DNA from: an uncultured SAR116 cluster alpha proteobacterium
GTDB taxonomy: Bacteria > Pseudomonadota > Alphaproteobacteria > Puniceispirillales > Marisalimonadaceae
Assembly (NCBI GenBank): GCA_902619805.1
Contig: CACNGC010000001.1
Span: 248,001-312,000, forward strand
Length of the DNA: 64,000 nt
Reading direction: 5' to 3'
The notes under the pieces were generated by a model, which was not told where the DNA came from, ran no database searches, and saw only the letters and a list, made by a program, of their open reading frames with translations. Positions 12,023 through 49,429 of the stretch are shown here, piece after piece. Position 1 is the stretch's first letter; each line of letters opens with the position of its first letter. Made by a program: the position numbers and the translations under genes.

Positions 12023-12646
12023 ATGATAAAAATTTTGAACAAAACTGATCTTGAAACATGTATTTATAGAGTTAGAAATGCAGGTGATAAAGAGAGATCA
12101 GACGATAAATATAATAAGGCAAGTGTTTTAGTGTTGTTTATTAACGATTATATTAAAAAAAACAGTTCGATTTTAATGATCAAGAGAAGAGATAATTTAA
12201 GAAAGCATCCAGGACAAATAGCTTTCCCAGGTGGAAGAAAAGAAAAAGAAGATTTAAATTTAGAAGAAACAGCGAAGAGAGAAACTGAAGAAGAAATAAA
12301 TCTCTCTAGAGAGCATTTTAGCATTGTAGGCAATTTTCCTAAATTTTTTACCGGTACGGGCTACGTTGTAACACCATTTCTTGGCATTATTAAATCTAAC
12401 TCTAATTGGCAAAAGTTATTAAAACCAAATTTAAGTGAAGTAGAAAAAATTTTTTTTCCACCAACTGAATGTCTATTATCACCAAAGTATCATTTGAGAG
12501 AAAAACCACCTATCAACTCAAGTATGTCAATGACTTGGGCAATTAATTATAATGATAAAAACATTTGGGGGTTAACAGCAAGAGTGTTAGTGACTATATC
12601 TGCAGGATTAGGTTTGAGGGAGTTTCCACCATGCGACGATATTTAA
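12023..12646 (+). CDS. NUDIX hydrolase, CoA pyrophosphatase type
   Basis: A 207-aa cytoplasmic NUDIX enzyme, expected to cleave CoA derivatives to phosphopantetheine and adenosine 3',5'-bisphosphate. The UPF0035 motif is represented by RRDNLRKHPGQIAFPGG and the NUDIX box runs through KRETEEEINL with the metal-binding glutamates. The C-terminal sixteen bases overlap the downstream DUF6111 gene, whose start lies inside this one. The order CoA pyrophosphatase-DUF6111-cca is a known alphaproteobacterial arrangement. Confidence 0.9.
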   Translation: MIKILNKTDLETCIYRVRNAGDKERSDDKYNKASVLVLFINDYIKKNSSILMIKRRDNLRKHPGQIAFPGGRKEKEDLNLEETAKRETEEEINLSREHFSIVGNFPKFFTGTGYVVTPFLGIIKSNSNWQKLLKPNLSEVEKIFFPPTECLLSPKYHLREKPPINSSMSMTWAINYNDKNIWGLTARVLVTISAGLGLREFPPCDDI

Positions 12647-12885
12647 TTATTTTTTTAGCAGTTATATTTTCTATAGGCCTTTTTTTCTTAACAAAATTTA
12701 TTTTGAATAAACTAACAAAAAATAATCAAATTTTTTATTCATCAATTGTAAGTGTTATTGGGTTTTGTATTTTTGTTTTATTTGCTTTTTTATACCTGGA
12801 AATAGATTCCTACGATCCTAGTTACTCTTATCAACCTCCATTGTTAATTGATGGAAAAATCAAAGATGGAAACTTTTCGAAGTAA
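12631..12885 (+). CDS. DUF6111-like small membrane protein
   Basis: An 84-aa protein with two membrane spans (about 3-25 and 36-58) and the C-terminal pattern YxPP..DGKI.DG.F typical of DUF6111. I chose the ATG at 12631 because it has a GAGGGAG Shine-Dalgarno and matches the family N-terminus MRRYL; an upstream in-frame start at 12565 would sit inside the NUDIX gene with no support. The function is unknown. Its TAA stop (12883-12885) is in the same frame as cca, with the cca-encoding frame open from the very next codon. Confidence 0.75.
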   Translation: MRRYLIIFLAVIFSIGLFFLTKFILNKLTKNNQIFYSSIVSVIGFCIFVLFAFLYLEIDSYDPSYSYQPPLLIDGKIKDGNFSK

Positions 12886-12890
12886 AAAGG
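12886..12890 (+). promoter_or_regulatory. Shine-Dalgarno-like AAAGG ahead of cca
   Basis: The sequence AAAGG immediately follows the DUF6111 stop codon. It stands 7 nt before an in-frame ATA (12898) and 10 nt before an in-frame ATT (12901), but 17 nt before the only nearby ATG (12908), which is out of frame. It therefore supports initiation at a non-canonical codon more than at the ATG. Confidence 0.35.
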
Positions 12891-12900
12891 TATTAGAATA

Positions 12901-14223
12901 ATTAAAAATGAATTTAAAAAATTATTTGAAATAGATAAAAATATCAAAGTTATTTTCAATCTTGCAGAAAGCGTTGATACTAAAATTTGGATTGTTGGAG
13001 GAGCTTTAAGAGATTACCTTATTAACCGAGAAGTAACTGACATTGATTTTGTAATAAATGAAGATGTAAACAAATTTAAAAAAAAACTAATTGCAAATAA
13101 TTTAAAAGTTAATGACGTCTATATAAAATACAAAACTATCACATTAATAATACACCAAAAAGAGTATCATATAACAAGGTTTAGGAAAGACTTAGTTTCT
13201 TTTGGTAGATTCGCAATTGTAGATAATGCTTATAGTTTAAATGAGGACGTAAAAAGAAGAGATTTTACTATAAATAGCTTATATTTAGACGCGAAAGGAA
13301 ATTTAATTGATCTCCTTAACGGTAAACATGACATTAATAAAAGAAAGCTTGTCTTTATAGGTGATCCAATAGAAAGAATAGAAGAAGATTATCTAAGAAT
13401 TATAAGATTTTGCCGTTTCTCAGGAAATTTTAATAATAATATTTCTAAAAATATTAAAAAAGAAATAATAGCAAGAGTACCTAATATCATTAATTTATCA
13501 AACAAGAGAATTAGAGACGAGATTGACAAAATACTTTCAATCAAGAATTGTCAGAAATGCATGTCAATGATGAACAAATTATCTATAGATAGATATCTTT
13601 TAATTAATAAAAACAATAATCATAAATTTGCTATTCATAACGGGTTTTTACTCAACAATTTTAAAATAATTGACTTTATAAAATCTAATGCAAAAACTGT
13701 CATTGAAAATGAAAAATTAGATTTAATTTCAGTTATAATGATCCATTTATATGGAGGAAATAATGTTGAAATGATAATTAAGAGATTTGATTTGAATAAA
13801 AGAAAAACCAAATTTTTATATTTTGTTAGGCAATTAATAAATTTAAAAAAAAATGTTAAAAACAATTTTTTGGGTACAATTGAAGGTCGGGAAAAAAAGA
13901 TAAAAGTTCTTCAATTAATCTGGAAACTTAGGTCTTGTATTAATTCTAAAAAACAAGGATTGTTTAAGAAAGATCATGTACCATTTAATTGGTACAAATT
14001 AGGGTTGTTACACGTTTTATCCTTTGAAAAAATAAAAAATGTTGATTTTGAGGAATTAAATTGGCCTATATTCCCATTAGTTAGAGAGGATATATTAAAA
14101 ACAAAAAAAATAACTGCTTATAATGAAGTTGAAAAATTATTTTTCCAAGCCGAGGATTTTTGGGTAAATAACAATTTTAAAAGTTCATCAAAAGAAATTT
14201 TACATTTTTTAAAAAATAGATAG
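12901..14223 (+). CDS. cca: CCA tRNA nucleotidyltransferase, with no canonical start codon
   Basis: Adds or repairs the 3' CCA of tRNAs (class II nucleotidyltransferase fold). The frame open from 12886 to 14223 encodes the N-terminal catalytic motif IVGGALRDYLI, the metal-binding DIDF pair, then VKRRDFTINSLYLD, DLLNGKHDI and DYLRIIRFCRF: all the core motifs in one frame. No ATG, GTG or TTG precedes the catalytic motif in this frame; the first ATG is at 13561, after the catalytic domain. I place the start at ATT 12901 (ATA 12898 is the alternative), giving 440 aa. Alternatively, adding one A to the six-A run at 12916-12921 would put ATG 12908 in frame. Gene identity is secure; the start is not. 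Confidence 0.85.
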   Translation: MKNEFKKLFEIDKNIKVIFNLAESVDTKIWIVGGALRDYLINREVTDIDFVINEDVNKFKKKLIANNLKVNDVYIKYKTITLIIHQKEYHITRFRKDLVSFGRFAIVDNAYSLNEDVKRRDFTINSLYLDAKGNLIDLLNGKHDINKRKLVFIGDPIERIEEDYLRIIRFCRFSGNFNNNISKNIKKEIIARVPNIINLSNKRIRDEIDKILSIKNCQKCMSMMNKLSIDRYLLINKNNNHKFAIHNGFLLNNFKIIDFIKSNAKTVIENEKLDLISVIMIHLYGGNNVEMIIKRFDLNKRKTKFLYFVRQLINLKKNVKNNFLGTIEGREKKIKVLQLIWKLRSCINSKKQGLFKKDHVPFNWYKLGLLHVLSFEKIKNVDFEELNWPIFPLVREDILKTKKITAYNEVEKLFFQAEDFWVNNNFKSSSKEILHFLKNR

Positions 14224-36899: not shown

Positions 36900-38327
36900 A
36901 TGATAAATAAAGTCAAAGTTGTAAATAGTCATTTTAATTTAGGTGAATCCTTTTACCACATAGCTACTCCAGCAAAGTTTCCTAATCATATTTTAAGATT
37001 TAGAAATGACAGAGCTGCTGAGTTGTTAGATTTAGACAATTTAAGTGATAATCAGTGGGTTAAATTTTTTGGTAAATTCGCTAAATTGCCAGGTACTAAT
37101 CATGAACCAATGGCATTAAAATATCATGGCCATCAATTTGGTTATTATAATCCAGACTTAGGCGATGGAAGAGGGTTTCTGATAGCACAATTTTTAGATA
37201 AAAATAATATTTTATGGGATTTGGGAACAAAAGGTTCTGGGCAAACAAAATATAGCAGGGGAGGAGATGGTAGGCTTACTCTGAAGGGAGCTGTGAGAGA
37301 GTTATTAGCAACTGAATTTTTAACTTCCTTAGGTGTTCCTACAAGTCAAACTTTTTCAATTATTGAAACAGCAGAAGAATTACAAAGAAATGATGAACCT
37401 TCTCCAACAAGATCAGCTGTTCTTGTTAGAAGAAGTAATAGTCATATTAGGATAGGTACCTTTCAAAGATTAAGATATTTTAATGAATATGATAATATTG
37501 CTCTATTATTAAACCATCTTAGTGAAAATTATTTTACCAATATAAAACCCCAAAAAAATATAGAGTCTTTAGCCGAAAATATATTCTTAGAAAGTGTAAA
37601 AAGAATATCAGAATCAATTGGCAGGATTATTATCTCAGGTTTTGTTCATGGTGTTTTAAATACAGATAATTTTAATATTACTGGAGAAGTGTTTGATTAT
37701 GGTCCGTGGAGATTTATAGAATTTGCAGATAGTTCCTTTACAGCAGCATATTTTGATAATTATGGAAGATATTCTTTTGGAAGACAACCTGAGGCAGCAT
37801 TATGGGCACTTACACAGTTAGGAAAAAGTTTAGATAAGTTTATAGATGAAAAAATAATAATTGAAACTTTGAACCAATTTTCTAAATACTTTCATGAATC
37901 GTTAAAAAAGCATTTTTGTTGGAGGATGGGAATACAAGATATTGATAGTAAAAATCTTAATGAAATAATTACAATTTTATTAAACGAAAGTGAAAAGAAT
38001 AAAATTGATTACGCTGATACGTTCTATGATTTCTATGGAGGAAGGGATTCTATTATAGATTGCATCAAAACTAATTATGGTAAAAAATATAAAATTAATA
38101 AATTTTCAAAAATTGTTGATATTTTAAAAGAAACTCTTCCCGTTCAAGGTGTTTTTGAAAAGAAACGTCAGTTAGATAATAACAGACAAAATTTGTTAAT
38201 TGGAGAAGTTGAAAATATTTGGAGAGAAATCGATCAAAATGATAATTGGGAATTACTTTATGAGAAGATTAATAATATTAGAAAACTTGGTTATTTACTT
38301 GAATCCGAAAAACTTGTTTACTTGTGA
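36900..38327 (+). CDS. selO: Protein adenylyltransferase SelO (YdiU family)
   Basis: A 475-aa pseudokinase-fold enzyme that transfers AMP to protein Ser/Thr/Tyr residues. Seen: KGSGQTKYSRGGDGRLTLK (ATP-binding region), HGVLNTDN (catalytic Asp) and FDYGP (metal-binding Asp). The C-terminus ends at LESEKLVYL and has no Cys or TGA-encoded Sec near the end, unlike SelO proteins with a C-terminal redox residue. Its 3' end overlaps the convergent ELM1 gene by 33 nt. Redox proteostasis with msrP upstream is a plausible theme. Confidence 0.93.
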   Translation: MINKVKVVNSHFNLGESFYHIATPAKFPNHILRFRNDRAAELLDLDNLSDNQWVKFFGKFAKLPGTNHEPMALKYHGHQFGYYNPDLGDGRGFLIAQFLDKNNILWDLGTKGSGQTKYSRGGDGRLTLKGAVRELLATEFLTSLGVPTSQTFSIIETAEELQRNDEPSPTRSAVLVRRSNSHIRIGTFQRLRYFNEYDNIALLLNHLSENYFTNIKPQKNIESLAENIFLESVKRISESIGRIIISGFVHGVLNTDNFNITGEVFDYGPWRFIEFADSSFTAAYFDNYGRYSFGRQPEAALWALTQLGKSLDKFIDEKIIIETLNQFSKYFHESLKKHFCWRMGIQDIDSKNLNEIITILLNESEKNKIDYADTFYDFYGGRDSIIDCIKTNYGKKYKINKFSKIVDILKETLPVQGVFEKKRQLDNNRQNLLIGEVENIWREIDQNDNWELLYEKINNIRKLGYLLESEKLVYL

Positions 38328-39257
38328 TATGGTAATTTTATTTGTTTGGAGTTTACTTTTTTCAAATTTATATAAATTACCATGATAGTCTTGAACAATA
38401 TTTAATTCTTTGAGATTTGATATAAAAAATGAAATTTTTCTATTTTTCTTTGAAAAGTGAAAAATAAATAAAGGTTTTGAGAGTGTTGCTAACTCAGAGA
38501 TCATGTTAACGCTGTCACTTGTGACAATAGTGTAATCAATTATTTCTAAAATTTTTGGATAAAGCTTATTTTCGTCTGAAGAGAGTATGTTAAAGTCCTT
38601 TAAATGTTTTGAAAAAGTAGATTGTAATATTTTAATTGCTCTATTTGGTGTTCTTCTGGACACGGTAACTATCAATTGTGCATTTAACTTTTTAACTCCT
38701 TGAATTACCTTAGTGCTTAACTCAAAATATTCGCTATAATCTTGTTTTTGTTTTTTGCTGTTACCTCCAACCATTAATAAAACGGTATTTTTTTTAGTTT
38801 TTATTTTTTTTAAATTTGGTTCTTTGAACTTTTTGAAATCTTTTTCTTCAAAAAAACAAAGAGCACCTTTTGTTTGAATTACATTTTTACCTTTTATCCT
38901 GTCATGTTCTGGAATTAATAATAAATCGAAATTGTTTAGTGATAATTTAGGATTTTGGATATGTATAGTTTTAACATTATTCTTTAAAATAGATTTTAGG
39001 GCAATGGATGTCCCAGCCATCCTTCTACCAGTAGTAATAATAATTGAAGGTAGTATATCTGTATCTAATTTTTGTCGTAAAAAATATGGAACATATAATT
39101 TTCCAAGTATAGGAAATTTTTTTAAAATATATGGAGGATCATAATCAATTAATTTAAAATTAACATTTAACATTTTTGCTAGAGCAATTGACTGATTTTC
39201 CATACCCTTGGTACTGTCTGATAATATCCAAGTTTCATTTTCACTTTGTATCTTTAT
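38295..39257 (-). CDS. ELM1 (mitochondrial fission) family protein, start codon unclear
   Basis: A member of the bacterial ELM1 family (GT-B-like fold; function unknown in bacteria). The conserved N-terminal strand and loop WILSDSTKGMENQS are encoded, but the first ATG (39203) begins at the M of GMENQ and would cut off that strand. Upstream the frame is open to a TAG at 39330-39332 and has no ATG, GTG or TTG. AAGGA followed at 7 nt by ATA (39255-39257) is the most plausible start, which I used; adding one A after the out-of-frame ATG at 39236-39238 would instead give MKTWILSD. C-terminal half: TVSRRTPNRAIKIL and VTSDSVNMISE. It overlaps selO at the 3' end. Confidence 0.72.
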   Translation of the reverse strand: MKIQSENETWILSDSTKGMENQSIALAKMLNVNFKLIDYDPPYILKKFPILGKLYVPYFLRQKLDTDILPSIIITTGRRMAGTSIALKSILKNNVKTIHIQNPKLSLNNFDLLLIPEHDRIKGKNVIQTKGALCFFEEKDFKKFKEPNLKKIKTKKNTVLLMVGGNSKKQKQDYSEYFELSTKVIQGVKKLNAQLIVTVSRRTPNRAIKILQSTFSKHLKDFNILSSDENKLYPKILEIIDYTIVTSDSVNMISELATLSKPLFIFHFSKKNRKISFFISNLKELNIVQDYHGNLYKFEKSKLQTNKITISQVNKFFGFK

Positions 39258-39389
39258 CTTTTTTCCTTTTATGTTCTCTGAAATATAAGTAAAAAAATTT
39301 TTCTTGAAATAAAATTGTTTATTATGGGGCTATATATTAATATTATTACAAAATCTTTATCATAGTTATTATAAAGAAGTATTGATTAA

Positions 39390-49352: not shown

Positions 49353-49429
49353 AGGCCTGTAGCTCAACTGGTTAGAGCCCTCCGCTCATAACGGAGTGGT
49401 TGGGGGTTCAAGTCCCTCCAGGCCTACCA
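49353..49429 (+). tRNA. tRNA-Ile2 (CAU anticodon), CCA encoded
   Basis: A complete 77-nt cloverleaf: acceptor 7 bp, D-arm GCTC/GAGC, anticodon stem CTCCG/CGGAG with loop CTCATAA (CAT at 49387-49389), five-base variable region, T-arm with TTCAAGT, discriminator A and encoded CCA. CAU could mean Met, initiator or Ile2. The consecutive C4-G69 and C5-G68 pairs, plus C29-G41, A37 and A38, are the known TilS/IleRS determinants, so Ile2 (lysidine-modified) is preferred. The first pair is A1-T72, an unusual choice. Confidence 0.88.

Follow-up and report, generated by a model that had tools for sequence, protein, structure and literature searches.

Near-cognate AUH start codons (AUU, AUA or AUC) offer the CAU initiator only two matching bases, the first and the second, and are discriminated against by IF3. 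One gene of this kind, pcnB, belongs to the same nucleotidyltransferase superfamily as cca, the gene considered here. Excerpts of three papers (PMC5472188, PMC13009471 and PMC10158994) describe IF3 discrimination against near-cognate starts; the first of these excerpts also gives AUU as the start of Escherichia coli infC, and an AUU start for pcnB figures in a title cited within PMC13009471. According to the excerpt of PMC13009471, S. aureus begins infC with AUA, cvfC1 with AUU, ccpN with AUA and citZ with AUA, and the AUU/AUA starts of the last three yield ~10-30% of the output of an AUG reporter. Similarly, the excerpt of PMC5472188 reports a GTC start in Streptomyces sigR that is repressed by IF3.

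Like infC and pcnB of E. coli, the cca gene of a SAR116 bacterium described below has a near-cognate AUH start; unlike them, it is the sole class II nucleotidyltransferase match of its genome, and its start codon alternates between ATT and ATA among relatives. It has AUU/AUA in common with the S. aureus set, in which, as far as the excerpt goes, three of the starts are described as conserved and synthesis is kept low. That excerpt gives infC, cvfC1 and ccpN an extended Shine-Dalgarno sequence, whereas cca has only AAAGG or something similar; the genes and the phylum are also different. The sigR gene, as excerpted, resembles the proposed cca in being a gene other than infC whose noncanonical start sets the protein level, and differs in that its codon is GTC rather than AUH and its IF3 control is experimental, whereas for cca we infer it.

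By the window we mean the whole stretch of DNA that was analysed, 64,000 nt of a contig of 324 kb (C1 of genome G000, our own genome in what follows). In this window a frame of 445 open codons, 12886-14223 on the plus strand, begins directly after the TAA at 12883-12885. The features around its start are as follows.

12631..12885, plus strand: small upstream open reading frame of 84 amino acids (earlier label DUF6111), with its TAA 15 nt ahead of the proposed start
12886..12890, plus strand: AAAGG, Shine-Dalgarno-like, the GG end 7 nt from ATA 12898 and 10 nt from ATT 12901
12895..12897, plus strand: codon AGA in the window; an in-frame stop (TGA, TAG or TAA) here in 18/29 relatives
12898..12900, plus strand: codon A, ATA, alternative start with the better Shine-Dalgarno spacing; ATA 13, ATT 12, GTT 2, AAT 1, AAA 1 of 29
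12901..12903, plus strand: codon B, ATT, most likely start; ATT 19, ATA 10 of 29, ATG/GTG/TTG in none
12901..14223, plus strand: cca, a CCA-adding-enzyme-like class II nucleotidyltransferase, 440 residues counted from codon B

The first ATG, GTG or TTG within the frame is the ATG at 13561, after 225 codons. An earlier sequence-only reading had held that cca has no such start ahead of its catalytic motif, which is true and understates the case; it had also placed the TAA, AAAGG, ATA and ATT, with the gaps of 7 and 10 nt from GG, just where the list has them. In the genes of the contig, ATG, GTG and TTG together account for 3,536 of 93,956 codons (3.76%), and from these frequencies a run of 225 codons free of all three has p ~2e-4. 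It is the longest such run among 340 homologous open reading frames of the contig, the next being 116, 96, 78 and 40 codons.

The product belongs to the class II CCA-adding enzyme/poly(A) polymerase superfamily, with 96 bits for the PolyA_pol head domain (Pfam cut-off 23) and 26.5 bits for PolyA_pol_RNAbd (cut-off 22). Its top NCBIfam model is the CCA tRNA nucleotidyltransferase NF009814, at 149.7 bits and thus below the cut-off of 290; the pcnB model TIGR01942 gives 105.7 bits, under a cut-off of 305.65, and no NCBIfam equivalog cut-off is reached. The name cca is used here on two grounds, the best NCBIfam match and the presence of no other class II nucleotidyltransferase match in the genome. 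The explanation that we consider very probable is that cca is an intact gene with a near-cognate AUU/AUA start, AUU 12901 being the likeliest codon, with AAAGG to position the ribosome and probably some help from coupling to the gene upstream.

The gene was found in 29 of 40 genomes sampled from the genus, our own included (the remaining 11 are 52-79% complete), and its start region was compared in all 29 of these SAR116 genomes. Codon 12901 reads ATT in 19 and ATA in 10, an AGG stands 9-11 nt upstream of it in every genome, so that the spacing is nearly fixed, and no canonical start occurs in any genome between the nearest upstream in-frame stop and this codon. From 12901 to the VGGA motif, it is the only codon column in which ATH is present in every row (n=29). 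Three switches between ATT and ATA can be placed on a tree of the 29 cca proteins, and ATG, which is one transition away from ATA, is absent at this codon throughout. No ATG, GTG or TTG is found anywhere before the catalytic VGGA motif in 21 genomes; in the other eight a canonical codon lies between 12901 and the motif, namely ATG at +24 in six that form one subclade, ATG at +72 in one and GTG at +78 in one. In the outgroup genera an in-frame ATG, GTG or TTG precedes the motif at 19 of the 20 cca loci, and the remaining one (L109) is cut off. The constant ATT/ATA and its AGG support AUU/AUA initiation of cca, which we regard as well supported by this comparison.

The sequence-only reading had suggested aligning relatives, and had offered as an alternative that the six-A run at 12916-12921 had lost an A, so that the true start would be ATG 12908, now in the neighbouring frame. 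Such a loss could be an error or slippage in vivo. That ATG does exist in our genome, and the lineage is one in which A runs might plausibly slip, since the 5-formyltetrahydrofolate cyclo-ligase gene of two genomes has an A10 tract and an out-of-frame ATG. The alignment, however, shows at most six A at this place in each of the 29 genomes, never seven, and only 5 have ATG 12908. Downstream, 28 of the 29 genomes have a frame of 439-450 residues, and in the last one the frame, also long, is cut by the end of its contig. Nor is cca an error peculiar to our genome, since a sequencing error would need to recur in 29 assemblies. The lost base is thereby refuted for the genus, and we consider it highly improbable.

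A second earlier alternative was readthrough of the UAA, which, like a frameshift, would yield a fusion with the upstream small gene, and in the window the two genes do share one frame. It fails on the second in-frame stop that 18 of the 29 genomes carry directly before codon 12898, and on small length differences that alter the frame relation of the two genes in some relatives; we reject it as extremely improbable. As far as alignments can establish it, then, comparison demonstrates that cca has no canonical start, that an AUH codon and its spacing are conserved, that readthrough and a lost base are excluded, and that the pattern recurs in other genes.

In at least 11 of the 29 genomes, ours among them, the contig stops ~62-63 kb beyond cca, at what is the right end of C1. 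This common end points to a repeat that these genomes have in common and that was left unassembled, perhaps an rRNA operon.

Which of the two adjacent codons is used is less clear-cut. The start could be AUA 12898, or both codons could serve, as a tandem of weak starts that tolerates the loss of one; codon 12898 is ATA or ATT in 25 of 29 genomes and GTT in two, for which the GTC start given for Streptomyces sigR in the excerpt of PMC5472188 offers a parallel. Its distance of 7 nt from the GG is the contig mode: the 246 presumed ATG starts of C1 have an AGG-to-start spacing of 7 nt in 25 cases, 8 nt in 23 and 10 nt in 5, so that the spacing to codon 12901 exceeds the mode of 7-8 nt. The same AAAGG-N7-ATA arrangement is found at the ELM1-like gene discussed below. 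On the other side, one genome has AAT and a second has AAA at codon 12898, neither of which would be expected to start translation, and 12901 is ATT or ATA in all. Codon 12901 is thus favoured by conservation and 12898 by Shine-Dalgarno spacing; we rank 12901 first and treat 12898, or use of both, as a live rival, though an unlikely one.

With AUU 12901 as the start, the following mechanism can be proposed. AAAGG, a weak Shine-Dalgarno element, would position the ribosome at the codon. Translational coupling of cca to the small upstream frame may operate, and ribosomes ending there, 15 nt before the start, would probably help initiation. The third base of the codon would be a mismatch for the initiator tRNA (anticodon CAU), which would pair with the other two, and because of this mismatch initiation should be inefficient and exposed to discrimination by IF3. 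This would keep the output of cca low, with a possible increase at times of IF3 shortage. In sum, we infer that cca is expressed, that initiation takes place at exactly this codon with low efficiency, and that coupling and IF3 control contribute.

The upstream partner has little to identify it. Its 84-residue product matches no Pfam or NCBIfam family at E 0.001, so that the DUF6111 label given to it earlier was not confirmed; many relatives share its FSK-stop C-terminal end. In addition, the 98 nt from 12863 to 12960 fold no better than shuffled sequences (z +1.16), and therefore control by a hairpin at the cca start is not suggested.

If cca used an AUH start, one may ask whether other genes of the lineage do so. 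We compared C1 with the syntenic contig of a relative (G016), which gave 346 homologous pairs of open reading frames, 340 of them at >=100 bits, and looked for genes whose first canonical codon lies >=15 codons inside the conserved stretch, a criterion that gives a lower bound on such genes. Fifteen genes were found in at least one of the two genomes. In our genome four of these offer an AUH codon and lack any canonical start that could be used: cca, dnaX, hemD and an ELM1-like gene, the products of the last three falling into the Pfam families DnaX, HemD and ELM1. One has its ATG in a different frame, kdsB is ambiguous, and in the remaining nine, by our judgement, a canonical codon further in could serve as the start or the DNA is conserved non-coding or tRNA sequence. 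The features of the three further genes, in C1 or in window coordinates, are these.

C1 204260-205993 (L129), minus strand: dnaX, ATA at the start column
C1 216973-217722 (L129), plus strand: hemD, ATT behind AGGAG
Window 38295..39257, minus strand: ELM1-like gene (PF06258), likely start ATA 39257-39255; TTG in the same column in another clade
Window 39265..39269, minus strand: AAAGG upstream of the ELM1-like gene and 7 nt from the ATA, equal to the spacing from AAAGG to ATA 12898

The start column of dnaX, compared in the 29 of 30 genus loci that contain the N-terminus (L186 does not), reads ATA in 26 and ATC in 3. No in-frame canonical codon lies upstream in 26 of the 29; L168, L181 and L183 have one. 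In all 15 outgroup loci, from three other families, an in-frame ATG is located shortly before the LARKYRP motif, and the AUH start of dnaX therefore looks derived in the genus. An ACG stands four codons upstream of the ATA in 26 of 29 loci, with ATG there in one genome. We set this ACG aside as a start: L182, which has it, carries an in-frame stop before the ATA, and two loci have AAA or AAG in its place.

For hemD, 28 of 29 loci include the start, L216 being a fragment. ATT fills the column in 24 of the 28, behind AAGGAG-type sequences, and the other four have TTG one codon upstream; one of the 24 ATT loci (L207) has an upstream ATG as well. The ELM1-like gene was compared at 30 loci drawn from 32 genomes with a match; 17 have ATA in the start column and 11 have TTG. 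Of the two others, L232 has ATA one codon further on and L244 has it elsewhere. An in-frame ATG or TTG is near the ATA of L229, L232 and L233, which affects 2 of the 17 loci with ATA in the column, and five of the 11 TTG loci have another canonical codon upstream.

The infC gene itself gave 47 matches in 61 genomes, of which 30 were compared (L069-L098): 14 belong to our genus, and two other families of the order supply the remaining 16. The start column holds ATA in all 30. An in-frame canonical codon is found further upstream in five (L070, L074, L088, L090 and L098), L079 is cut off upstream, and some loci have a canonical codon downstream of the ATA. The frame of our own infC is closed by a stop 5 codons ahead of the ATA; between there and the conserved part a single canonical codon occurs, a TTG located 18 codons past the ATA. 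Judged by these alignments, cca appears to be one of a set, its class of start recurring in dnaX, hemD, the ELM1-like gene and infC.

Two of the other survey genes merit an observation of their own. The gene with the displaced ATG encodes 5-formyltetrahydrofolate cyclo-ligase (PF01812; C1 315919-316476, L132:3919-4476): the frame of its ATG differs from that of the body, and the two are joined across a run of ten A both in our genome and in the G016 contig, which makes it a candidate for conserved transcriptional or ribosomal slippage. For kdsB (C1 207048-207875, minus strand, L129), no canonical codon precedes the ATG just ahead of the IPARL motif; it may start at that ATG or at a near-cognate codon upstream.

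The tRNA genes were also considered. In our genome and in G013, 30 tRNA loci were read of 35 matches in each; no initiator tRNA was recognised among these, and no special initiator with another anticodon was seen among the same loci, in which the initiator itself went unrecognised. The two CAU tRNAs of either genome we take, by their signatures, to be elongator Met and Ile2. A tRNA called Met(cat) is located in the window at 49353-49429, and by its signature is presumably tRNA-Ile2 rather than Met. Both CAU tRNA genes of our genome encode the CCA end; the enzyme may therefore mainly repair ends. Low demand for CCA repair would fit a weak cca start. The protein output of cca and of the other genes with such starts may be held low on purpose.

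AUH initiation could also be real and carry no regulation, start selection being relaxed in the genus and AUH drifting in under AT pressure because its ribosomes tolerate such codons. This challenges the regulatory part of our explanation only, and we hold it to be somewhat improbable without being far-fetched. It accords with an AT-rich genome, with AUH at the start column of several unrelated genes, and with the presence at hemD and the ELM1-like gene of TTG in some members and ATA/ATT in others. Against it, AUH was found in only 4 of 340 surveyed contig genes, and ATG, TTG and GTG are still the rule (246, 61 and 11 as the first canonical codon of 318 open reading frames of the contig); moreover, in cca, dnaX and infC every member compared has AUH. 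Extending the regulatory explanation, we entertain, as a rather unlikely possibility, that the genus has a genome-wide class of AUU/AUA/AUC-initiated housekeeping genes (infC, cca, dnaX, hemD, the ELM1-like gene and likely more), making up ~1% of genes, whose output would be jointly tuned by IF3.

Conserved AUU/AUA starts, some of them repressed by IF3, are known elsewhere; the gene set and the lineage look new. Searches of the literature on SAR116 start codons, on tRNA nucleotidyltransferase genes with AUU starts and on dnaX with AUA returned nothing relevant among the matches listed, which is weak evidence of absence given that most subscription journals fall outside the coverage. What is added here is a single lineage in which cca, dnaX, hemD and the ELM1-like gene all appear to have such starts, a reading supported by the occurrence of TTG in some members and ATA/ATT in others at the start slot.

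Most descriptions of noncanonical starts in bacteria concern single genes; here comparison alone brings out several in one lineage. The exchange of ATA or ATT with TTG at a single start slot is evolutionary evidence that AUH serves as a start in this group, and control by IF3 becomes testable over a set of genes. It is important to remember that annotation which accepts only ATG, GTG and TTG must truncate or miss essential genes; in the window, cca would be annotated as beginning 225 codons late. If joint tuning by IF3 is true, an IF3-responsive set would link the fidelity of initiation to tRNA repair, replication clamp loading and haem synthesis.
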